Assembly (NCBI GenBank): GCA_002989075.1
Contig: PSQN01000005.1
Coordinates: forward strand, 248,001-312,000
Direction: 5' to 3'
DNA from: Arthonia radiata
Taxonomy: Eukaryota > Ascomycota > Arthoniomycetes > Arthoniales > Arthoniaceae
DNA length: 64,000 nt
The notes under the pieces were generated by a model that made no database searches, was not told the DNA's origin, and saw only the letters and a program-made list of their open reading frames with translations. This document shows, one piece after another, positions 2,926 to 17,120 of this stretch (position 1 is its first letter; the number at the start of each line of letters is the position of its first letter). Position numbers and translations under genes: made by a program.

Positions 2926-4347
2926 TCAGCATACGTTTTGATGTATGACGGGGTGTCGGATCTTACCGTCAGGTACTATGAATCTTGGAGGTCCTTGAGT
3001 TGTATGACTGGCTCGCCGAACGACTTGATAACGGCGCCGCGGCTGCTGGGCGAGCGGTCGAGCCGGCAATGGCGGGTTGACGCTCGAGGACGGTGGAGCG
3101 TTGACGCTGGAGGGCGGTGAAGGGCTGACGCTGGAGGGCGGCGGTGGCGTGGGTGTGGACTCTCGAACCAACTCTAGCGATGGGCGTCTCGAGGGTCTCG
3201 AGGGCTGGAGAGCGATTCCGGCGAATTCGACTGAATCCCGCTCCATGTCGTGTAGCGAGACTGAGAGCCTGAGTCTCTGTCTTGCTACATGGTCGGCGCG
3301 GGCCGCATTTGCTACGTAGTTCAAAAGTCTGCGTTGCCTGTCGTTCGCCCATGTCATGTCCATGCTTTCGATTGCGTCATCCAGCCTGTGCTGGTTTTGA
3401 TGGAGGTATTCTATGTCAGCGTCGAGGCGCGGATCAGCATTGCGATCGTCGACTCTCTCAGCAGAAGCAGCAGGATCGCCTGGCTCCCGCGCAGCTCCTC
3501 CCACCGCGGCTACGGTAAGAGTTCCAACGTACACAGGGCGCTCTACGCGTAGACTGGGCGGGAGATCCTGCGGAGGAAACCGCATAGCATCCCGGAGCAG
3601 GTCGTAAGCCTGACGTGCTCTTCGGGTGTCTCGAATGATCTGAAGGCGGAGGCCATGATCTTGCGTGCGGAAGACGTCCAAGTATGTTCTGGAAGTGAAG
3701 AGTTCCAGCTCCAGGCAAGTCGACATGAGGTAATCTATGTCCTCCGACGCACGGGCCACTACATCCAAAGACTCAGTGGCATCCACGCTTTGCCTGCTTA
3801 GGTGTTCATACAACTTTACCCACTTCCACAGACACACAAATCCCAAAAGAAGTCCTTCCACTACGGTTCCTCGAGGCAACGTTCTGGGCAATATCCATTC
3901 TGGCAGCCGCCCGTCGCGAGCTGCTGTATCCAGTCCAAAGCGTAGGCATTCGAAGCACACCGGTGCGAGTCGAGTGTCGGCGCCCTGCTGGTGCTGGAAG
4001 AGGAGCACTCGCACGCGGTCGAGGAGGCCATTGCTCGTGAACGTATGCGCAGGGCTCACACAGCGTGGATCAGACTGGTAAGGTCGACGGTACGGTCCAC
4101 GATCGAGCGGGTCTTGGGCTGAAAGCTCGTTGTGTATGCGGTACAACTCCCGGGCGGGTATGATCTCTCGACAGTACGTACATGTCTGACGTTCCTCAAT
4201 GATGTGCCACTGCAGGAAGCATTCTCTGCATAGAAGAGGGCATTGGGCACCACGACGTGGTCGATGTGGGACACGTATTTGACCCTGCGTGACGTAGCAG
4301 ATCGGGCAGATGGCCTCATCAGATGACGCAGCATTCTCAGCAGACAT
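2926..4347 (-). CDS. RING-finger protein, putative E3 ubiquitin ligase
   Basis: A 473-residue protein in one exon. An N-terminal RING-type zinc finger spans residues 14-59: CPIC at 14-17, Cys36, Cys40, Cys43, His48 and the final pair Cys56/Cys59. The order fits a C3HC4-like RING that binds an E2 enzyme. The middle (about 100-270) is helical with no recognised substrate domain. The C-terminal third is Pro/Ser-rich, with a run of PTPPPPSSVSPSPPSSV type, and is probably disordered. I chose the Met at 4347 rather than the in-frame one at 4407 because the RING follows it directly; the extra 20 residues look like leader. It sits 109 bp downstream of the PLP gene on the same strand, and that gene also has a Cys-rich knuckle, so a functional link is possible but unproven. 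E3 activity is inferred from the RING alone. Confidence 0.75.
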   Translation of the reverse strand: MSAENAASSDEAICPICYVTQGQIRVPHRPRRGAQCPLLCRECFLQWHIIEERQTCTYCREIIPARELYRIHNELSAQDPLDRGPYRRPYQSDPRCVSPAHTFTSNGLLDRVRVLLFQHQQGADTRLAPVCFECLRFGLDTAARDGRLPEWILPRTLPRGTVVEGLLLGFVCLWKWVKLYEHLSRQSVDATESLDVVARASEDIDYLMSTCLELELFTSRTYLDVFRTQDHGLRLQIIRDTRRARQAYDLLRDAMRFPPQDLPPSLRVERPVYVGTLTVAAVGGAAREPGDPAASAERVDDRNADPRLDADIEYLHQNQHRLDDAIESMDMTWANDRQRRLLNYVANAARADHVARQRLRLSVSLHDMERDSVEFAGIALQPSRPSRRPSLELVRESTPTPPPPSSVSPSPPSSVNAPPSSSVNPPLPARPLAQQPRRRYQVVRRASHTTQGPPRFIVPDGKIRHPVIHQNVC

Positions 4348-4456
4348 TGTGCATTGCAAAGGTTTGGTGGCTGCGATGATATCGTGGTTCTTGAGGAGAC
4401 CGAGCACGCTCTATGTTGTTTCTATTTACGAGACGCGTGTCACAAGCTATTTATAA

Positions 4457-7400
4457 TCATCCAATATCGTAGAAGCGCTTCTTCCGGGGACCAGGCGCCA
4501 GCTCCACAGCGTCGCGCTTCCGCTTCTTCACCACCAAGCCCGTGGGCACTCGGGGCTCACAGCAGCTCAGGCACTCGCCCGGCCGTCGAGACTCGCCATC
4601 AAAAGGCTCGTCCAGGCCCTGCTGATCGACGAACCACCGCAATGTTTGTGGGAATCCGCTGACGTTGCGGATGCCACGCTTTGGCGAGACTAATGCTATG
4701 GATAGGACCGTGTCGATGTCGCGGATCAGGATCTCAATCGGCTGACGAAACCTTGAGCACGACGAGCACGTGTGGCGCTGCAGTTCCAAGCTGTCCCCGT
4801 CCTCCGAGTCGATCCGAATGCGTACACCAGCGCCCACGAGCTCCTGCCACGCTCGCGCAATCTCCACAGTGTTACCACGACACCGCACCGATCCCATCAC
4901 TCGATAGGCTTGGACGTCGGCGATCCATTGGGGCTTCGATGACAGCTCCCAGTAGAAGCAGGAAGCAAGGAGCGCATAGCAGACGTCCACGACCTCGCCC
5001 TTTTCCGCTAGTTGACGAGCCGTAGTCTCTCTGAGGTAATCCATGCATCCCACATCGTCAATCTCGGGCTCCTGCCCATCGAGAAATAGATTGAATCGGA
5101 AGAATGCGTCACTTCGGTCCGCCTGTAAACGATTCTGTAGGTCCACCCATACCGATTCGCCATCGATTGATGTCATAAACGCGCGGTAGACCCGGGGCAA
5201 GAACGTATCCTGAAAATGATTGCGGGTGAGGGAGGCCTGTGGTGACATCAACGTGTTGCGAATATCGCTGCCAGTGCCCAGTGACAGCACCACGTCCGTT
5301 GCGGTCTTCTCCGGCCAGAGCGCCTGGGTCTCCCATAATGCGACGTTGATGGGATTGTTGTGACGTAATCCACCATCTTGGAAGGTCCCTACGCGTGGAA
5401 TAGTGGCCGGTTTCAAGAGCCTTGGCTGGTTAGTATTACGACAGCGAGCATCTCTTGGGCTTTGTGATCACTTACCATAGAGCGGCGGACGTTGCTCGGC
5501 CACTGTCGAGCGTGTAAGTTAGCCGATCAAGCATACCATGAATACGTCTATGAGCATCACTCACACTTCCCAGTTGAGGGGCTCGTCTTGGAAGTCCACC
5601 GCTCGAAAGTGTTTGTATCCTGGTCAAGTCAGCACGATCCAGGCTTCGCTCCTCTTCCTTGACTCACCCCGCGGTCGCTTCTCACGATGGGCGCCATTGT
5701 AGTTGGAAAACACGAATGACAGTGCGTTCGAGATCGTGGTGGCAATGACGGCGACTTTGGCACGCGAGATGCCGCTTCCAGGGTGGCCGAACAAGGTATT
5801 CGAGGTACCGAAGCTCTCTTGGAGGACACTCTCGAGGCCGGTCGCATCATAGCAGCCATCTGATATCAGGCCGCGCAGGTAGTGATTGATTCGCGACATC
5901 ATTGAACGACGATTCCCAGGCTCTTGACCAAAGCACCGTCCTGTCAAGGTGTAGAAGGCTTCCATCCCCTCCGCGACCGTCCATCCCTTGACGAAGAGAC
6001 CCAAGACGATTAACCCTCCTGCTCAGAGATCAGCCAATAGTGAAAAAACACACCTGCGGCTAGACCCACCTGCACTGGTGCCAAATGCCAGGTCGAAGAA
6101 ATCTTGAATTGGGCATCCTTTCCCAAGAACAGACTGGATCATGCGGAGCGATTCGAGAGGAACAATACCGCGGACTCCGCCTCCATCGACGCTCAAAATG
6201 CGAACGCCCGCCGTAGGGGGCTTTAGCTGAACGACGAGCTGGCATCGGTCCCTGCAGAGCATGCATTGGCGCATCTCGAAGCGGTGCTCGTCGCCTTGGT
6301 TGGGAACCCCAAACCCACGCACACAGCGGTCGCAGATTGAGTGCCCACAGGAGAGGATGTGCTCAGGCTTCGCCGCGATGCAAAAGAGACAGCATTGGCC
6401 GGTCTTAAGAAGACCGAAGGAACATCGGCGGCTTCGCACGTTTGCTGCGTGTATCTGGAGAGCAGAGCGCCCGCGCCCCAGCTCTCGGAACAAGGACACA
6501 AAGGCCGCTCTCACCTCGTTTTGACTCGCGATCAGAGCCGGGGAACCATCCAGGGCGTTCTTGAATGCAGTCTCGACGCTGTGTTCGTAGCACCTCTCGT
6601 ACACCAGTGAGGGATCGAATGCTGTACGGCGAATCAGCAAAGCGCCAGCCACTGTCAAGGATACTCACTATGCATATCGACCGGATAAGCCTCCATGATC
6701 AAGGAGGAAGCCAAAACACTGACAAGATCTGAGCAATGTAGCTGCTGCTTAAGCCCCAGGCGGAGAAACAGCGTCAAAAGTGCAGCATGGTCGGGAGGCG
6801 GTGGCCGTCTCAGGCGGCTTGCGGTGATGAAATCGAAGAGCGCGGCGGCAGATCGAGCGAACTCCGGCAAACGTCGCGCGAAGAACGCTGAGAGGTGTTT
6901 CGCGGAGAACAAACATCGCTCACGTACTCGCGTGTGGTGAAGCATGTCGCGTACTTGACCCAAATACCGCTGCAGAGGCCCGTACAGCACCGTGCTAGAC
7001 TTACTGTGGCGGAAGAGACGCACTATCTCGATGGGGCCAAAGCAAGCGCTCGCTATGCGGGATGAGACCACACTGTCGAGGCGGAGAGACTCGATAGCGA
7101 GCGGGCCCGGGCGCGATGGCAAGCCCGCGGCACGCTCGCTCGATGTCACAATCACTATGCGTGGCCGCACGGCGATTGGAAGCGTTGATGCACTGCCCTG
7201 GTTGATCCAGCGAGCAATGAGAGCGACGGTCTGCTCGAACGTGCCAATGTCCTCCGCGAAGACGCAGATGATGTCGGTGAAGAGGAAGACCAGCCGGGGA
7301 AATATCAGCTCTGATAGCTCACCAGGGGTGATATCCCAGCGGGCGTGGTGCCGTCGGCAAGGGTGACAGGTGTGATTGGGCGCCTTTGCCGGCACAGGGA

Positions 7401-7692
7401 CGTTCAGATTCGCGTCCACCACGAACAGCGGGTTGGTGTCGTTTTTTGTCCTGTCGTCCGAATAAATGTTTGCGAAATTGGTGTCATCCAGGTCGTCACT
7501 GGGTGTCCGCAAGTCAGTATACAACTGGTCTATCGCGGTTGTCTTCGCTTTGGAGCCGATGAAGGTTATGATGGATGGATGTTGCTGGTCAGGCCTGGGC
7601 AGAGACGCACTGAGCTGCTCCAGTCGAGTACTGTTCCCCAAACACAAGCTGGGCCTGCCGGAGACCTCGAACCATGCAGTGTGATCGCACAT
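4457..7692 (-). CDS. Patatin-like phospholipase with degenerate P-loop and RING-like domains
   Basis: Six exons (7692-6669, 6621-6070, 6018-5668, 5619-5565, 5502-5476, 5420-4457) joined by 47-62 nt GT-AG introns give 990 aa in a continuous frame. Residues 1-341 form an N-terminal module that in fungal relatives carries a P-loop NTPase; here the P-loop reads FIGSKAKTTA (44-53) and has lost the GxGKS core. A RING-like Cys/His cluster follows (CCLFC, CGHSICDRC, CMLC, about 418-464). The patatin domain starts near 481 with the oxyanion loop DGGGVRG (487-493), nucleophile elbow GTSAG (Ser524) and catalytic DGG (Asp685). The acyl hydrolase dyad is therefore intact; the expected reaction is release of fatty acid from phospholipid. 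Start chosen at MCDHTAWF. It neighbours a DUF3723 gene, a pairing known from Starship cargo. Family membership is firm; the biological role, perhaps in conflict or allorecognition as for other fungal PLPs, is inference. Confidence 0.88.
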
Positions 7693-7866
7693 ACTGTTCC
7701 TTTCGCGGCGTTGTCTGTGAATGCTGAAAGACCAGATAAATCCCAGCAACCCCCTTTAGAGATATAAATAGCTTTAATGCTATTGTGGTCACTCCTTTCT
7801 TTAGCTATATGAGCGCGTAAGCTCACAGGACGTCCACCCTGAGTCCAGCGGCTTGCGATTCGCGGC

Positions 7867-10489
7867 ATGCAATCAAACGCCCGCAGCATCGAGTGCGCCG
7901 AGCGCATAGGTTCCGTGAAGGTATCAATCGCACACCTGACCTTTCTCGATGAGATCGGGGGCCGCATGCTACGTCCCCTAGACGCGAATGCGGTTCACCG
8001 ACTCGCCGAAATCTTCCGCATGGTGAGGTTTGACCGTAGCAATCCCACTCATCACATCGCTGCCGTGGTCCCCTCCTCCAGCGTTGCCAATCAGGCGAGG
8101 GGCATACTCGCGACGTCAGCCGCGTCCTGCGTGCCCTTGCTTGATCTTGAGGGTGCCGAGCCTCTTCGGTGCCTCTATGGCCGTCATCGAATCGAGGCAG
8201 CGAAGCGCTGTCTGCCCCCCTCGGAACGATGGTGGGTGGTACTAGTCTACGATGAGAGTGAGCAACATCCACGTGCGAGACCCTTCCCATCCGCGAGCTC
8301 ACCAACGGCCAGACCTCAGCCTAGAGGCCCAGTGGACCATAGCCAACGAGAGGCCACACATGGAGAGCAATCCAGATGGCTTCGTCTTCCGCTGCTTGCG
8401 GATGAGCGAACGGAGCCACCGGCTCAATGAACGAGCTGTCTGGCTTAGCCGTTTGTCTGCTTCGAAGCAAAGAGATTATCGACAGCTCTGCTCACCATCC
8501 AACCATGCTCTACTCTCAGCTCTGGACCGCCTGCTACCGTTTACCGGCCTGTGGGCAACCTTCTTCCTGGGCACTTTTCATCGTCTACTGAGTCTACGTT
8601 GTCAGACGGTTAGTCCCCTTGTCGGCTCGTAACTGAAGCTACTGACCACCACACAGGAACTGGTCCACTATCTCGATCTCGTGTATAGCCAATGGAACAC
8701 CATCACCCTTGGTAGGGCAGAGATACAAAATCGTCTGGACGTCGATACGGTAGAGGCGCTCCAGCTCCTCTGCCCTCATCTAGCGAACCTCGACCGCGAG
8801 AGAATTCGAAACTTGATGTTCCACGCGAAAGCGTTCCCGACGGTGGAGGATGATGAGGTCCGTCAAGACATCAAGGCCCGGTTGCTGAGTGTGGCAATGC
8901 GGGTACCTTCTTTGGCCACTTTTTTTGAAGACGTCAAATTCTTGGAGCCGCCCGCGAAGCTGTTGCTATCTTTTTGCGCAGATGTCAAGCCGAAACGAGA
9001 ACTTTTCTACATGCTTCAGCGCCTGTATGAAGGGAGAGATGAGCACGACATGTTCCACGAGCATTACAGACGATTGTGGTTGCTGGCCGTCCGTTTCTAT
9101 CCTAGCGCCGGTGACATCGAGCCCCGTTTAGACAAGAAGCGCAGAAGAGTACGTCTGACATCGACGGAGAGGAATGCAGCTACGTGGTCGTTCTTTAAGG
9201 CTCGGGCATCCGCGCTGGACTTTGAGTCCACAAGCAGTGGGCCACAACAGCGTGGCACCAATTCTGGGCTAGAGCTTTTGGAGAACTTTGCGAGTGGCCG
9301 ACCACCATTTACAAACAGTCTGCTGGACGTGTCAACAAGTCATCGGTGGGGTCGCTCTTTTAAGAGTGATTTGGCGTTCTTTGCGCCTTGGTTCACTTAC
9401 GAGAACGTTTATGATGCGGATGAAATGCATCTCGAGAGCTATCTTACGCCGTTTAGCATAGCTCGAGACATTTTCTAGTCTTTTCTCGGGCTTGGTGGTG
9501 AGATTACGCAAGCTTACGACCAGATAGATCCTCCTCCTCCTCCAATGGATCATGCTCAGACCCGTCCCAGCTCCTTCTTACAGCTTACGACTGTATTAGC
9601 AGAAGTCGGCGGCGATCCTTCGCATGGAGAAGCACCAGAACCTGATGACGCGGATACCGTCACTACGCGGCCAGCAGGATCAGTACGAACGTGGTCATCT
9701 TTGACGACTGGTCCAGGTCTTGGAGATCGCCCTCGAGAGTCCCGAGCCAGCATCATTACGGATACGGACACTCACAGCGTGGGGCCTGTAGACGGGGCGG
9801 CACAATTTCCTCATATACCCGCGTCTGCATCGTCTATAAGCACGCGGTCCTCGCCGGTCGCTCCTGGGTCACGATCGAACCCATCCCTCCTCACCGTCAA
9901 CAGCGACATCCACAGCCAAATCCCACTTCAAGGCGCCGCGAGGTTTCCAGCGATAGCCGACGCGATTCGGCGTGCACCACCAGCTGCAGAAGACGGATCG
10001 TTAATCTCGGCACACTCTGAGTCGCCGCAGACGACGTCACAGGGTACGATTTCCGAGGAGCAGGGCGCAAGAGCGACTAAGAACTTTGTTGCCCTGATGT
10101 TAGATAGTGAACTCTGCTATATCTATGATTGCCACCTCCACCGGCTTTACGGTATCTAACGCGGGATCCTTCCGCGTCTTCTCCGCGTGTGGAGCCGGCG
10201 GCGACAGCGCTTGTGGTTCTTGGGCGAGCGTCTTGATTGGCGTACAGGTCAAGAAGAGCAAGACTATCGTAGGTACGGGGTTGGCTTTATTAAAGCGGAG
10301 AGGCCTTCGCTGTGGATTGACTATCTGTCGGGCTATAATTCGGGTGGTGACGTCGAAATGCCCTCACGCCTAACGCAGTTGCAGCTGAGACTTGCCCATT
10401 GCCTTCGGTACTACGGTCAATTTAGCGGCGCTCCTGCTCCTTGGGCTGAGCTCGAAATTGTAGCAGATCTTGAAGGTTTTGAACACTAA
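7867..10489 (+). pseudogene. DUF3723-family protein gene, interrupted
   Basis: Exons 7867-8257, 8313-8608 and 8657 onward, with introns 8258-8312 and 8609-8656, match the layout of fungal DUF3723 proteins. Supporting segments are CLYGRHRIEAAKRCLPPSE (about residues 99-117), ALDRLLPFTGLWATFFLGTF and the later KFLEPPAKLLLSF. The GRHRIEAA motif resembles the HR-containing nucleotide loop of ParB/Srx-like folds (inference). The frame meets TAG at 9476 and TAA at 10157, yet stays open in the same phase up to 10489, with a Pro-rich linker and then a conserved-looking C-terminal part (QRLWFLGERLDWRTGQEE). Both stops could arise from CAG or CAA by one C-to-T change. DUF3723 has no proven biochemistry but is a recurrent accessory gene of Starship transposons. 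A shorter functional product ending at 9478 is possible. Confidence 0.75.
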
Positions 10490-10723: not shown

Positions 10724-12544
10724 ATGGATAGATCCTATTACTCCGCCGAACGTGGCGTTCAGTGGCAGCCCGATCTCGCTGCCGCTAATCGCCGCCTGAT
10801 GGTACATGAGTGGCTCATGGAGCGCTTCCCAAGATCATCTGAGTCCGCTACAGACAGTATGATCGCGTTTCGCAAATTCCGAGAGGAGATTATGCCACCG
10901 GGCGGTCCCTCTCTCTACGTTAACAAAGACTTTGTTAATCGACCTCTTACAAGCTGGTTCCCCATACATTCTAATGTCACTTCACGACTGATGTCTGAAG
11001 CGCTTGAAGCCCAAAGACAGCAAATTTGCGAGGAAGTTCGACAAAAGGAGCAAAGTTGCCAAATTGAGCTCCAGGCATGTTACAACGACCCTTCAAATAC
11101 AGCTGCTAGGGCCGTTCTGCTTGCCTCTTATCAGATGCTGCTAGATCTGAACTGCTGCTATTTTCTTGCATGTCAGCAGTTACAAACCCTACCAGGAAGC
11201 CGGCCACCAGCGACTGAGTACGAGATAACTTCCCAATTGTAGACACGCGCTATCTAGCCGCCTCTCGAACTTCTACAATCGCAGATGCCGACGTCTTTTA
11301 ACGAGCTTGAGAGTCTCTTGTACTCCTCCTACCGGCTGATAGCATTCCTCTTGGAGGTTCGTCTGTCATCCACAGACTCTTGGCTTCAATGTCTTGTCGC
11401 TCTGAGCCAGTTTATGATGGGACTCAAACTGCCAGAGTCGCCCGGGCATCAAGTTTGGAGGGCGAATGCTGTCGACTGGTACACGGCGCTAGCAAATCGT
11501 GCTCCGGGCGAAGGCCGCTTTCTGCGTTAGTACTTCCTCTGAAAGCTGCGAACTACACTTCTAATTAGTAATATAGACTGTATTGGAACACTTACCAAGG
11601 GCCAACCGCTGCGGAAGCTCTCCCTCTTGTGCGCGTCGGCGACTGCCGAGAAGCCTTCTCAAAAAGCACGCGCTGTTGTTCGAACTATGTCACAAAAACG
11701 CGGGGCTGCTCGGCGGCGCGATACCCACTCATTCCAGATCTGGTTTCACACGCTTCACGCTTACTTAGCGGCTCGTTCGGGTTCGGACGATGAGTTCGAG
11801 CATGCCGAAGCCAGCTTCTTGCGCGCTCTCGACCAAGGCTTTTGCAATCAGGACCCCATATTCCATGAATCTGCCGCGGATGTTGCGATCTGCAACGTCG
11901 CGGCCCTCCTACGATATGGGTGGTCAGAATCAAAAATTCTTTAGGAATTTTTACACCCTAAAGACTGCGCTAATTTCACCGCGAAGGATGTTAACGGCGA
12001 GGAGTGGGAGGTAGCACTCCACAGTCTCAACATCGCGCTTAGATATTACAACAAAACTACCATGCCCCTTATATACGTGATGCTTTTGTTCTTCTGGAAG
12101 ATAGCAGGCATAGGACATGGGATCCTCGTCCTTCGCGCTGTTAGCATCGCCTGGGATCGACTCGCGACTTATTTAAACGCAGGTGAGCGGGAACATCCTT
12201 TGTCGCTAGCGGCGGTAGAAGAAGGGGGGGACACTGCTCGCCAATTCTGGGTTGGACACCTCCCAGAAGACCAATTGCTTCGCAGTCAGAGCTGGGCCGC
12301 CGCGTGGTTCAGAAAGCATTGGGATGATGCCACATGGACATACTCAGGGACCTTTCATTCGCCACCGCAGATCGAGGTCAGGCAGTATGATCTCGTACGC
12401 GCCGCGCGGATCCAGTGGCTCGCGGAAAAGCTCGTGCTGTCTAGTAAGGCCGCAGGTGTAGGTTTGCCACTTCGTTGCTACCGTCTGTCAGGCGCAGTCT
12501 ACTTCAACCTCAGCCGCAAGCGGAAAGCTTCATTGACTTCTTAA
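10724..12544 (+). pseudogene. Est1/14-3-3-like DNA/RNA-binding-domain protein gene, interrupted
   Basis: Four open segments (10724-11242, 11285-11530, 11627-11944, 12062-12544) all lie in the same reading phase. Read in order they resemble fungal Est1-type proteins (telomerase-activating Est1 family, TPR/14-3-3-like helices). Hallmarks are the N-terminal FRKFREEIMPPGGP region, a basic helix, then NELESLLYSSYRLIAFLLE and DSWLQCLVALSQF followed by a Trp-Tyr helix ending in GRFLR. Stops separate the segments: some may be hidden in introns (donor GTTAGT near 11526, acceptor CCAAG near 11600), but TAG at 11942 cuts a frame that continues cleanly (KIL then EFLHPKDCANF). The gene is probably decayed, or needs splicing I cannot resolve. 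It directly follows the DUF3723 gene on the same strand. The family call comes from remembered fungal relatives and is moderate. Confidence 0.45.
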
Positions 12545-12639
12545 TCGTTACCAGACAGCTAGGGATAATTTCTTCATAGAAGGTAGCAGTAGAAACCGGG
12601 GAAAAGCAATTGTAGTGTTGTGTATCTTCTGCCTCTTCT

Positions 12640-13080
12640 TCTGTCCCAGGGCGTCTGCTGCCTTCTACCCAAGGGTCTTCTGCCCTAAGGGTCTTCTGCC
12701 CTCTGCCCAAGGGTCTGCCCAGGGGCGTCTTCTGCCTTCTGCCCCAGGGCGTCTTCTGCCTCCTGCCCAAGGGTCTTCTGCCCTCTGCTTAGGGGCGTCT
12801 TCTGCCTTCTGCCCAAGGGTCTTCTGCCCTCTGCTTAGGGGCGTCTTCTGCCTTCTGCCCAAGGGTCTTCTGCTCTCTGCTCAGGGGCGTCTTCTGCCTT
12901 CTGCCCAAGGGTCTTCTACCATCTGCCCAAGGGCGTCTTCTGCTTTCTGCCCATGGGGCGTATTCTGCCTTCTGCCCCAGGGCGTCTTCTGCCTCCTGCC
13001 CATGGGGCGTCTTCTGCCTCCTGCCCATGGGGCGTCTTCTGCCTCCTGCCCATGGGGCGTCTTCTGCCTTCTCCCCTCCA
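12640..13080. repeat. Minisatellite with CTTCTGCC core
   Basis: About 440 bp of tandem, imperfect units built on GGGCGTCTTCTGCCTTCTGC alternating with AAGGGTCTTCTGCCCTCTGC. Period is roughly 15-27 bp with higher-order pairing near 48 bp around 12775-12890. Both strands stay open (+ strand GVFCLLP-type, - strand GRRQKTP-type peptides), but this follows from the repeat and is not evidence of a gene. It marks the border between the accessory block and the housekeeping block. Confidence 0.9.
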
Positions 13081-13853
13081 AGCCGTAGACTTCGGAGACC
13101 GACGTACGTGAATGGCTGTGGCTAGCTCGGCGCCGTTGTCGGCAAGCTGCACGCTGTCCAATCCCGTCTCTTTCCCCCGCGCGCCGGTGGGAGGAATCTC
13201 GATGGAGGCGGCGGCGAGCCGCGAGCCGCGAGCCGCGCCGGCTGTTCGAGGAAGGTGGGAGGGCGACGTTGCACTGCAGCGTCGCACTGCGGCGCGGCCA
13301 GGCAGGCCGCGAGCGCCTGGGCGCGCCGGCGAGGGTATTAAGGGGAGGGTCGGCGGCGCGGTGGGAAAGAATGAGTGTCAGTATGGGCGGGCGGGCAGGG
13401 TGGGCGGCCGGCGCGCGACGGCCCCCGCTTTACCCGATCGGGCGGTCCACTTCGACACAGAGTACGGAATACGTAGGAGTAGGACAAGGCGAAAGGAGAA
13501 GGGCGCCTAATCGCCCGTAACTGAATCTCCGCCCTGGCGCTTGTTTAGCCGCCAGCTCGATCGGCCCCACCCGATGACATCGTCGCTCTCCAGCTTTCCC
13601 CAGGGGTTGTTTGCAGTGTTGATGTCAAGACGATCAAGATGCGGCCTCGTCTACCATTCTTGAGCAAGGGTGTAACAACCACCTACCGCTTCTGTGGAGC
13701 CAGCAGTTTGAACCGTCGAGCTTCCATCCGCATCGACTTTACTCCCAGATCTCCAAGCTTAGCTCGTTCCAGGGCTATGGCGACGAATTCCAATGACCCT
13801 CATCCATGTGCGTTCATCCCTCGCTCTTTCCTCCCTCTTCCCCCGACAATGAT
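13081..13853. promoter_or_regulatory. GC-rich strip and promoter region upstream of the GFA-domain gene
   Basis: 13,130-13,430 is extremely GC-rich, with repeated GAGCCGCGAGCCGCGAGCC and GGCGGGCGGGCAGGGTGGG tracts; open frames here follow from base composition. From about 13,560 the sequence becomes a pyrimidine-rich leader (CTTTCCTCCCTCTTCCCCCG at 13826-13845) typical of fungal 5' regions. An ORF starting at 13639 is short and not supported. Confidence 0.5.
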
Positions 13854-14802
13854 ATGCAGCGTGTGATCGGTCCTCAAGCATTGCGCTTCAACACTGCGGC
13901 TTCTCAGATCTTCACGCGCACCGCTCAAAGTTCTCGTGTTTGTTTGACAACGTCATCTCGCCCTTACCTCTCCAACCGCGTCTTCACCGCACCTTGTTCT
14001 CACAATCTCACAACCTCCCCCACATCTCATCAAGACACAGCCATGGCAGACATGGAGAAGCAGTTGCACAACAGCCCCAAGGGCGTCGAACCACCCCAGA
14101 CTAACGGCCTCCATCCAGCCAATCATCAGATTTCTGATTCTTCCGAGGGCAAGCATGATTGGAAGAAGCGGCCTCCTTACCGAGTTCACGACCCCGCTGA
14201 GCACTTTGAGGCCCGCTACGACGCCAGCTGCCATTGTGGGAAAGTGCAGTATCAATTGTCTCGAGAGGAGCCCCTAGACAGCAAGCTTTGTCACTGCACA
14301 ACTTGTCAATCTCAGCATGGTAAGCACTTTCAGTCCCCCTCCCGCCTTGGCCGTCCTCTTGAACAGTCCGACTTATGGCGCCGCAGCTGCACCCTTCCAG
14401 TGGGCAGCCATCTTCCACAAAGACGACATAAACTTCACAACCGGCCACCACCACCTTGAGTGGTATGATCCCACCAACAAGTCGATCGAGCATCAGCTTC
14501 CTTGCAAGGTTCGCTGCAGCTACTGCCACTCTCCGATCATGGACGAGGGCCGCAACATGATCCTGCTTTTCCCGACCTTGGTCAAGTTCAACAGCGAAGA
14601 CGACAGAGTAAAGTGGAGGCCGCGCTGCCACATGTTCTACGGTCAGCGCGTTATAGATATTCCGGATGGGTTGCCGAAGTGGACCGGCCTGAACCAAAGC
14701 AGCGATCTCATCGAAGACTCACCTCCAGACCTGATCAAAGAGGTTGCTCGCAGACAGGAGAAGGAGAGAAACGAGAGGTTCGAAAAGGGCGAGAACAAAT
14801 GA
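13854..14802 (+). CDS. GFA/CENP-V-type zinc-binding protein
   Basis: Two exons, 13854-14319 and 14387-14802, around a 67-nt intron (donor GTAAGC, acceptor CCGCAG). The GFA fold is shown by SCHCGKVQY, then CHCTTCQ just before the intron, and after it the conserved APFQWAAIFHKDDI segment, the distal pair CSYCHSP and RCHMFYGQR. GFA proteins bind two zinc ions; the founding member was described as a glutathione-dependent formaldehyde-activating enzyme, but most fungal members have no defined substrate. The Met at 13854 gives 293 aa with an Arg/Ser-rich, acid-poor N-terminus (MQRVIGPQALRF) that looks like a mitochondrial presequence. The Met at 14043 (MADMEKQ) would give a 230-residue cytosolic form, and both may be used. 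Family call firm; function open. Confidence 0.85.
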
Positions 14803-15314
14803 AGAGAATGATCGAGCTTGAGCAAGTTCACTGTCGTGTTGGTGATGCCAGTTCATCACCATCAGGCTGTCAGTGCACGTTACGGTGGCATTGCTGTGCT
14901 AGGTTAGGTCACTAGGAGTGATCTCGTGTATACGGGGAGGCCGCATGTCCCAACCCACAGATAAAAATTGACTCTCAATGACTACTAGCACGGCAGTTGA
15001 GTTCTTCAAAATACATAGACCAGAAATGTCTCGATAATATCTGCATAGGCTCCGCAGGGGTAGACTACTAAGCACATTTCGGATAAGCCAACCGACCGTG
15101 ATAGTGCTCTTGTTAAACGAAACGTCTGAATGGTGTTGGTATGTATGTAATTAAGAGTCCAAGCGTGCCACACTCTTCGTCGTGAGAACCTCGAGGGTCA
15201 CCTCGGCATCCGCTTCGATATGTGCCGAGGCCGTTGAACGTCGTCCATGCCATTATTGACCGTATGAAATCCATCCCTCTCCATCTGTTGCCGCTGCCAC
15301 CTTTCACCGGCAGT
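14803..15314. other. Intergenic between GFA gene and D2HGDH gene
   Basis: 3' region of the upstream gene followed by the promoter of the next. A short run of tandem Mets before 15315 gives an in-frame N-terminal extension from 15222, which I do not favour. No RNA gene or repeat is seen. Confidence 0.5.
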
Positions 15315-17120
15315 ATGGCTACTTCGAGATGTTGTAGGAGCAGCCTGGCCCAACCACTCCGTATCTCATGCACCCCACGTGTCGCCTGCCGTCCCTCGCG
15401 CGCATTCGCCACGACACAATCAAAACGGCTCTCTTTCGCACCTGCTCGATATCAAGGGCAGGCCGCGCAAGGAGCAGAAGTTCAGCACGATGATATAGCC
15501 AAGCACAATGTCAAAGCACCTGCTTTTACATCGGATGCGTATGCCACGGCCTGCAGGTTCAACTTCTGTCCCACTGCTAACGAACACCTGCGTAGCTACC
15601 CTAACCTGCAGCGGAATCCCGACTTTGCTCAGCTCAACAACAGCCACATCGATCACTTCCGCTCCCTCCTATCCGGCGAACCCGACTCCGCCATACTCCA
15701 TGACCCCTCTGGCGGCCACTCTGGCAGCGACATCGATCCGTACAATGCCGATTGGATGCGGAAATACCGAGGCCACTGCACGCTCGTTCTACGCCCGTCC
15801 ACAACGCAGCAGGTCTCTCAAATTCTAGCCTATTGTAATGATCAAAAGTTGGCGGTCGTTCCGCAGGGCGGCAACACCGGGCTCGTTGGAGGTAGCGTCC
15901 CTGTCTTCGATGAGATTGTGCTCAGTCTCAACCGGATGAACAAGATCCGGTCGTTTGACGGTACTTCGGGCATAATCGTTGCAGACGCAGGTGTGATCTT
16001 GGAGGTCGCGGACGGATACTTGGGCGAGCGTGGCCATATCTTTCCGCTGGATCTTGGTGCGAAGGGGAGCTGCATGCTGGGTGGCATCGTTGCGACGAAC
16101 GCTGGCGGCTTGCGGTTACTGCGGTACGGGAGTCTTCACGGCAACGTGCTGGGCATTGAAGCGGTCCTGCCCAATGGCACCATCGTCGATGATCTCAGCA
16201 CATTGAGGAAGAACAACACAGGCTACGACCTCAAACAGCTGTTCATCGGCGGCGAGGGAACGCTAGGGGTAGTGACAGGCATTTCAGTGCTATGTCCACA
16301 ACGATCCTCTTCAGTGAATGTTGCCGCCTTTGGCGTTTCGTCATTCGAGAACTGCCTTGAAACGTTCAAAGCTGCAAAGTCGCAGCTCGGTGAGATCATC
16401 AGCGCATTTGAGTTCACAGACAGAAAGTCACAGGAGCTACTACATACGGCGAAAGGTCTCAAGCTACCGCTGGAGGGCGAGCACCCGTTCTACGTTATTG
16501 TGGAAACAAGCGGAAGCAATGCCGACCATGATCAGGAGAAACTGGAAGGCTTCTTGAGTCATGTCATGGAGAAGGAGATCGTAAGTGATGGCGTGGTGGC
16601 GCAGGACGCGACACAAGCCGGCAATCTTTGGGGCTGCAGAGAAGGCGTGCCCGAAGCGCTGGGTCATTACGGCGGTGTCTACAAGTACGATCTGAGTCTG
16701 CCGCTCAATGAGCTTTATCAGCTTGTTGGTGAGACGAGAGAGCGCCTGAAAGGTATGAATCTCATTGGTGACAGCGATGAGTACCCTGTCGTTGATGCAG
16801 TGGGCTACGGTCATCTGGGCGACGGCAACTTGCATCTGAATGTGCCAACTCGAGGGTTTGATAAGAGAGTCGAGAAAGCGCTGGAGCCCTGGGTGTTTGA
16901 GTGGGTAGCGAAAAGAAAAGGCAGCATCAGTGCTGAGCATGGCCTCGGGCTAGCGAAGAAGCCATTTATCAATTATTCGAGGACAGACGGCATGGTCGAG
17001 TTGATGAAGGGCGTGAAGAATGCTTGGGATCCGGTGAGATTGAACCTCGACGAGAGTCTGAGCACTTTTGCTGACCACCTTTGACAGAACGGCATTATGA
17101 ATCCCTACAAATACATCTAA
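15315..17120 (+). CDS. DLD2: Mitochondrial D-2-hydroxyglutarate / D-lactate dehydrogenase (FAD-linked)
   Basis: Exon 1 is 15315-17033 and a tiny last exon is 17088-17120, after a 54-nt intron; the splice restores the family C-terminus WDPNGIMNPYKYI, giving 583 aa. Without the splice the protein would end in unrelated residues. The FAD-binding type-4 fold is shown by VVPQGGNTGLVGGSVPV and GGIVATNAGGLRLLRYGSL. The catalytic cap has GHLGDGNLHLN and SAEHGLGLAKK, the His/Glu motifs that place the metal and substrate in D2HGDH. The N-terminus (MATSRCCRSSLAQPLRIS) is basic and serine-rich, as in a mitochondrial presequence. The enzyme oxidises D-2-hydroxyglutarate to 2-oxoglutarate (or D-lactate to pyruvate), passing electrons onward. 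D2HGDH versus D-lactate specificity cannot be settled here; similarity to yeast Dld2/Dld3 is stronger than to Dld1. Confidence 0.9.

Follow-up and report, generated by a model that had tools for sequence, protein, structure and literature searches.

Fungal NOD-like receptors (NLRs) govern non-self recognition and programmed cell death. A known carrier of them is the Starship (PMC9815663, citing Gluck-Thaler 2022), and patatin-like phospholipase (PLP), DUF3723 and NLR genes count among the accessory genes listed for Starships (PMC12506042, PMC10175614). Starship-type regions have been described that are derelict (PMC11623301) or captain-less, as in the case of 'Icarus' of Pyrenophora tritici-repentis, a putative single element of 294 kb with DDE endonucleases and, depending on the isolate, NLR-HET or DUF3723/phospholipase genes, for which the authors leave open an introgression of the DDE genes (PMC9594970). 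HET genes have been placed near transposable elements by proximity (PMC6034849), and the amyloid-NLR clusters Het-eN/SESA/SESB (sigma) and PNT1/HELLP are amyloid-signalling pairs (PMC5485727). Among the matches listed from the open-licence literature, no title or beginning of an abstract describes pogo or Tc1-mariner elements that contain NLR genes. Here we analyse a window of 64,000 nucleotides from Arthonia radiata (positions 248001-312000 of a contig that we call C11, in a genome of 33.5 Mb and 16 contigs), whose first 13 kb contain a PLP gene and a DUF3723 gene side by side; an earlier reading, made from the letters alone, had proposed that these 13 kb may be part of a Starship, intact or fossil, that extends to the left of the window. 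The explanation that we consider probable, taken as a whole, is that they form the right side of an accessory island, which extends over C11 at approximately 222-261 kb between blocks of ordinary genes, that a pair of pogo-like DDE_1 transposons, A and B, and not a Starship, brought the two NLRs of this island, and that PLP and DUF3723 form a divergent gene pair in an island that has no captain.

NLR genes inside small transposons

The observations that carry this explanation are inverted ends with a common tip, TA dinucleotides at the flanks, a DDE_1 region together with an NLR in each copy, the existence of two copies of B, and the empty site of a third element, C. A self-comparison of C11:110-312 kb revealed A and B as blocks with inverted arms. 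Element A occupies C11:241140-248854 (241138-248856 with its TA dinucleotides). Its right end covers positions 1-854 of the window and is followed by the TA target duplication at 855-856; the right inverted arm spans 133-856, and the transposase gene has its 5' end immediately left of the window. Besides its DDE_1 gene (E 7.9e-27), A carries an NLR of the NB-ARC/TPR kind. After removal of two predicted introns, the region before the NB-ARC domain weakly matches alpha/beta hydrolases, with DUF676 just over its cut-off and four other hydrolase models below theirs. The TPR array of this NLR (C11:241692-242447) is built of 126-bp units, of which four out of five successive pairs are identical at 113-123 of the 126 positions and the last pair at 75; by analogy, these units may correspond to fast-changing recognition repeats.

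Element B occupies C11:226089-232963 and includes PNP_UDP, NB-ARC and TPR exons as well as a DDE_1 region with stops. Its NB-ARC domain has 24.2 bits in hmmscan and is absent from the list of 8 produced by the genome search; the P-loop of the NLR is divided by a predicted intron. A second copy of B is found at C9:1576077-1582951, 6,875 bp in length with 37 mismatches and no gaps, between other flanks and with TA on both sides. In both copies the NLR exons are open, and 8 stops interrupt the best frame of the DDE region.

Element C (C11:677663-683550) encodes a 723-aa NLR (NB-ARC, TPR), a 205-aa SesA protein (E 6.8e-21) and a DDE_1 transposase (E 1.8e-25). The N-terminus of the NLR and the C-terminus of SesA have a motif in common (local alignment score 104, versus a best of 53 in 2000 shuffles), the arrangement of a SesA/NLR pair of the amyloid type. 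C is embedded in AT-rich retroelement sequence, which gives access to its empty site: when the two flanks are put together around a single TA, 40 scored places (out of 360 candidates) match them at 84-89%, and all 40 of these retroelement matches cross the junction. Two of the empty sites were inspected. One (L035) has a single TA at the junction and no gap there, and the other (L036) is ungapped through the junction, with TG instead of TA.

The three elements are 6-8 kb in size, and their inverted arms extend approximately 260-720 bp inwards, discontinuously in B. They combine inverted ends and a TA duplication with DDE_1 and a helix-turn-helix domain (HTH_Tnp_Tc5, E 3.1e-4 in A and 0.0016 in C, both just under the curated cut-off), and for a DDE_1 transposase with HTH_Tnp_Tc5 we take the class name to be pogo-like, in the Tc1/mariner superfamily. 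Their NLRs have the parts of fungal NLRs, namely an NB-ARC domain with P-loop, a TPR array and an N-terminal effector or motif.

We propose that a transposase of this family would bind the inverted ends and move the whole segment, NLR included. B would have been moved in trans by a transposase of the same family, because its own frame is broken in both copies; its last move presumably needed a transposase from elsewhere, or happened otherwise. In the manner usual for fungal NLRs, a trigger received through the TPR array would flip the NB-ARC switch and so turn on an attached or paired effector, which would be the alpha/beta hydrolase in A, PNP_UDP in B, and SesA via the common motif in C. The activated effector would then kill or disable the cell, and the NLR modules would be cargo that the host keeps.

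The sequence TAAYGTCCATCCC is the tip of the family. That A and B have it in common while lying 8 kb apart raises the question of a composite element, in which the left outer end of B and the right outer end of A would move the whole 22.8 kb of C11:226-249 kb. We find this very improbable, as A and B each retain both of their own ends, B moved alone to C9, and the PLP/DUF3723 pair lies outside the stretch from B to A.

Extent of the family in the genome

The tip pattern GTCCATCCCKRYRT has 9 matches in the genome, which make up four convergent pairs (A, B, the C9 copy of B, and C) and one orphan left end at C12:748492 (748.5 kb), with AT-rich DNA behind it and no partner in the 10 kb examined. 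The reversed control of the pattern has 0 and 1 matches. An NB-ARC/TPR NLR is present in all four of the complete family copies found, which is not a blind count because the tip pattern came from these elements. A wider version of the pattern is found in 10 places, against 2 and 0 in the controls. They comprise the two ends each of B, its C9 copy and C, the orphan end, and three places without a partner. This version yields no new convergent pair in the genome, and it misses A because the tip of A differs at the last base.

Out of 8 NB-ARC matches, two are found 2.3 and 3.5 kb from DDE_1 (those of C and A) and five more than 100 kb away, and the 32 NACHT matches come no nearer than 23 kb to any of the 25 DDE_1 matches. 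In a chance model that places 25 DDE_1 and 10 NLR loci (the 8 NB-ARC matches plus the two copies of B) uniformly in 20,000 trials, the mean number of neighbours is 0.07 and the maximum 2, versus 4 observed (3 of them independent), a comparison that takes account neither of clustering nor of the NACHT NLRs. Among themselves, A, B and C have DDE regions of 67-73% identity; compared with ordinary DDE_1 sequences of the genome, three loci at C1:728 kb and C13:432-434 kb, the identity is 28-34%. Two of these three sit in elements of 2.0-2.1 kb with inverted ends of 137-138 bp. The transposase of the family is common, since 1,238 relatives of the one in C are found with E-values up to 1e-10, with up to 80% identity among the 120 listed. 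No locus related to C by its transposase was confirmed in the viral and genome contig collections.

It is a tentative proposal, to which we give somewhat less than even chances, that these elements represent a fungal pogo-like family with an NLR cell-death module as standing cargo, with interchangeable effectors and a role in defence or addiction, and that the family provides a second route for the spread of NLRs besides Starships. If that were true, it would be a eukaryotic counterpart of the bacterial transposons that carry defence systems, and the NLR repertoires of fungi would spread and reshuffle by both routes. For the turnover of these repertoires, a small transposon with terminal inverted repeats (TIRs) and a complete NLR is a simple and testable route, and one such transposon, C, carries receptor plus effector together.

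Several other neighbourhoods in the genome involve the same gene types. Within 14 kb at C9:1569229-1582951 are found a DUF3435 gene with stops, a PNP/NB-ARC/TPR NLR and then the second copy of B. A DUF3435 match at C11:944693 lies approximately 28 kb from adjoining patatin and NB-ARC matches (C11:972574-974396). Patatin and NB-ARC are side by side at C1:829064-831050 and C16:1158756-1160701, which are candidates for PLP-1-type NLRs.

The PLP/DUF3723 pair and the search for a Starship

The patatin gene and its divergent DUF3723 neighbour, recognised in the sequence-only reading, are real genes. The PLP gene spans 4457-7692 of the window on the minus strand. Its exon open reading frame (ORF) at 6023-6658 (minus) has 22.2 bits for Patatin and 20 bits for RING in hmmscan, both under the Pfam cut-offs; in the genome search, which has 18 Patatin matches, the same ORF has 23.6 bits, and 35.2 bits with its in-frame neighbours, over the cut-off. 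With five predicted introns removed, the gene model encodes 990 aa with the sequences DGGGVRG, GTSAGG, RATSAA and DGG, which we take to act as patatin motifs. The protein is 36-37% identical to three relatives (P0124, P0127, P0133) over approximately 970 aligned residues, nearly its full length. The best named relatives are ascomycetes, and several of them presumably are Dothideomycetes or lichen fungi. Structure models predict a GTPase fold of the GBP/dynamin superfamily at the N-terminus, and the protein is a member of a widespread family with a predicted GBP-like domain, a RING and a patatin domain. The canonical GTP-binding P-loop motif is not seen in the family consensus, which at that place reads FxGxxxKxxALRxLF with an invariant G48 and a nearly invariant K52. 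No solved structure among the matches listed joins GBP-type and patatin domains with a RING. With its GBP-like domain and RING, PLP may be an immune-type lipase effector, whose CapV/iPLA2-like patatin would be governed by the N-terminal domain, and DUF3723 may be its partner.

The two start codons enclose an upstream stretch common to the pair (7693-7866), so that the genes are close and divergent as had been read, with a gap of 174 bp rather than 175 bp. The DUF3723 gene (7867-9478, plus strand) is predicted to encode 502 aa, with two introns. Its exon ORFs at 7867-8430 and 8681-9478 have 50.3 and 102.2 bits in hmmscan and 49.6 and 165.7 bits in the genome search, where they are the sole two DUF3723 matches, exons of one gene. 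The reading frame halts at an in-frame TAG (9476-9478). The open stretches after it (9479-10489, plus strand) had been counted into the gene; we place its recognisable end at 9478, because the ORFs at 9545-10159 and 10187-10489 have no Pfam match and a BLAST comparison of the 226-aa open stretch after the TAG with the relatives tested finds no similarity. Three relatives were found, of which two have 743 and 775 aa, with 37% and 31% identity over 374 and 410 residues of the Arthonia protein. In their alignment the reading continues through the position of the TAG, and the Arthonia copy may therefore be broken there. The predicted structure of one relative (P0121) has a mean confidence score (pLDDT) of 45 and was not used; by eye, its N-terminus has a G+HR motif that may resemble ParB. 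The lichen fungus Squamulea has a PLP relative and a DUF3723 gene with neighbouring locus tags (the pair P0122 and P0180), and the two genes seem to adjoin there too.

The status of PLP, DUF3723 and NLRs as recurrent Starship accessory genes is borne out by the literature (PMC12506042, PMC10175614). The island has all of these (PLP, DUF3723 and two NLRs), a set that is not exclusive to Starships. As for ferric reductases, none of the nine NAD_binding_6 matches in the genome is in the island, and in the FAD_binding_8 protein of C11:220.5-221.9 kb the NAD_binding_6 match stays under the cut-off. By themselves, PLP, NLR and DUF3723 genes side by side do not prove a Starship, since other transposons, too, can bring in NLRs.

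A Starship has its captain as the first gene of the same element. The sequence-only reading had proposed a search for a DUF3435 captain to the left, and had taken the lack of one within 100-300 kb, combined with the same two genes at the same place in all close relatives, as refuting a Starship. The genome has 18 DUF3435 matches, among which several are fragments of a single gene. A captain-like gene is indeed found at C11:170854-172783 (170.85-172.8 kb), 77 kb left of the window and pointing towards it. Its exons are largely open, it begins approximately 0.27 kb after an inositol-phosphatase-like gene, and its frame is closed by a stop ahead of a Cys/His-rich stretch, which remains open in a different frame. 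It is possibly a lone captain or a small Starship. Minisatellites are seen by eye behind it at 176660-176975 and 174100-174260. No fewer than four genes of core type occupy the interval from this gene to the pair, with an HtrA-like protease at C11:188-191 kb, Rot1 at 197.4 kb, a gene with a Mur-ligase domain at 203.9 kb, and SKN1/KRE6 at 218-220 kb. We take their functions to be core functions. With these genes in between, a single contiguous Starship from the DUF3435 gene to the pair is unlikely, and a Starship starting from this captain was rejected as a candidate. In its fullest form, such an element would run intact or nearly so from 171 kb to approximately 261 kb with the core-type genes as cargo; the captain-like gene would be at the far end in the right orientation, but at least four core-type genes would be inside and the right edge was not found, so that we give this version almost no credence.

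The right edge had been expected near 13.1 kb of the window, where we find a minisatellite alone (12639-13076) and no edge. A scan of C11:248.9-263.5 kb for exact inverted repeats of at least 12 bp found none that are convincing. No DUF3435 match or captain piece was found in C11:221-264 kb, and tblastn queries cut from the 171-kb gene and from eight DUF3435 loci find TPR-repeat and weak matches only. The third-codon-position GC content (GC3) gives no signal of foreign origin, with 0.59-0.68 for the PLP and DUF3723 exons versus 0.54-0.69 for three core genes.

These results bear on an explanation that we judge unlikely, although well short of negligible, in which a fossil Starship once delivered the PLP/DUF3723 pair, and perhaps more of the island, and then lost its captain and edges, with the NLR transposons landing in or beside it. 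Such a history agrees with the published accessory kind of the pair (PMC12506042, PMC10175614), with DUF3723 being single in this genome, with other DUF3435 genes of the genome lying near NLRs (on C9 and at C11:944 kb), and with the published captain-less or derelict cases (PMC9594970, PMC11623301). It would have to account for the absence of a captain remnant from C11:221-264 kb, the lack of convincing edge repeats in the scan for exact inverted repeats, the lack of a GC3 signal, and closest DUF3723 relatives found that are just 31-37% identical. The idea that the first 13 kb belong to a Starship is supported in part: the region is accessory and partly mobile, NLRs are near, and a DUF3435 gene lies within 100 kb, but core-type genes intervene and the NLRs sit in DDE_1 elements.

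The remaining features of the region are as follows. A 493-aa ORF adjoining the PLP gene (2926-4407, minus strand) has a Cys-rich, RING-like start by eye and no Pfam match. Between DUF3723 and the minisatellite (10724-12544, plus strand) there are several ORFs with no Pfam match, perhaps one split gene. A GFA-domain gene and a FAD-linked oxidase (13806-17084, plus strand) are the first ordinary genes right of the island.

A number of points weigh against NLR delivery by pogo-like transposons into a captain-less island. The tip pattern was derived from these elements, and family members with other ends escape it. The sample is one genome with three independent element types. One NB-ARC locus (C9:1572167) is 9.2 kb from a DDE_1 match and outside a complete element. 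The transposase of A is interrupted by one in-frame stop, located between the DNA-binding and DDE parts, and that of C ends approximately 200 residues before the end of its relatives; with B broken in both copies, a complete-looking transposase is missing from all four copies, which argues against present activity by their own enzyme, and present activity is unproven. The left border of the island is uncertain. The partnership of PLP and DUF3723 is putative, and in Lecanora helva a DUF3723 match and two PLP matches are on contigs of different length.

Comparison with known systems

The PLP family resembles known proteins in its parts, GBP/atlastin/RNF112 GTPases on one side and CapV/iPLA2 patatin lipases on the other, and differs from them in its combination of domains and in a family consensus in which the usual GTP-binding P-loop is not seen. 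With pogo-like elements, A, B and C have in common the transposase domains, the inverted ends and the TA target duplication; those elements are approximately 2 kb long and contain the transposase alone, whereas A, B and C reach 6-8 kb and add an NLR gene. Like the Het-eN/SESA/SESB and PNT1/HELLP clusters, C has an NLR beside a SesA gene, with a short motif at the N-terminus of the NLR and the C-terminus of SesA; it differs in that the pair is inside a transposon and could move as one unit. Starships and the island both gather PLP, DUF3723 and NLR genes in one accessory region. The island, in contrast, has no captain, the nearest DUF3435 gene being cut off by core-type genes, and its NLRs instead ride TIR/DDE_1 elements with TA duplications. 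The island also resembles the 'Icarus' region as described in PMC9594970, which is captain-less too and has DDE genes plus, depending on the isolate, NLR-HET or DUF3723/phospholipase genes. 'Icarus' is one putative element of 294 kb, whereas the DDE elements described here are separate units of 6-8 kb, each with its own ends and an NLR as cargo.

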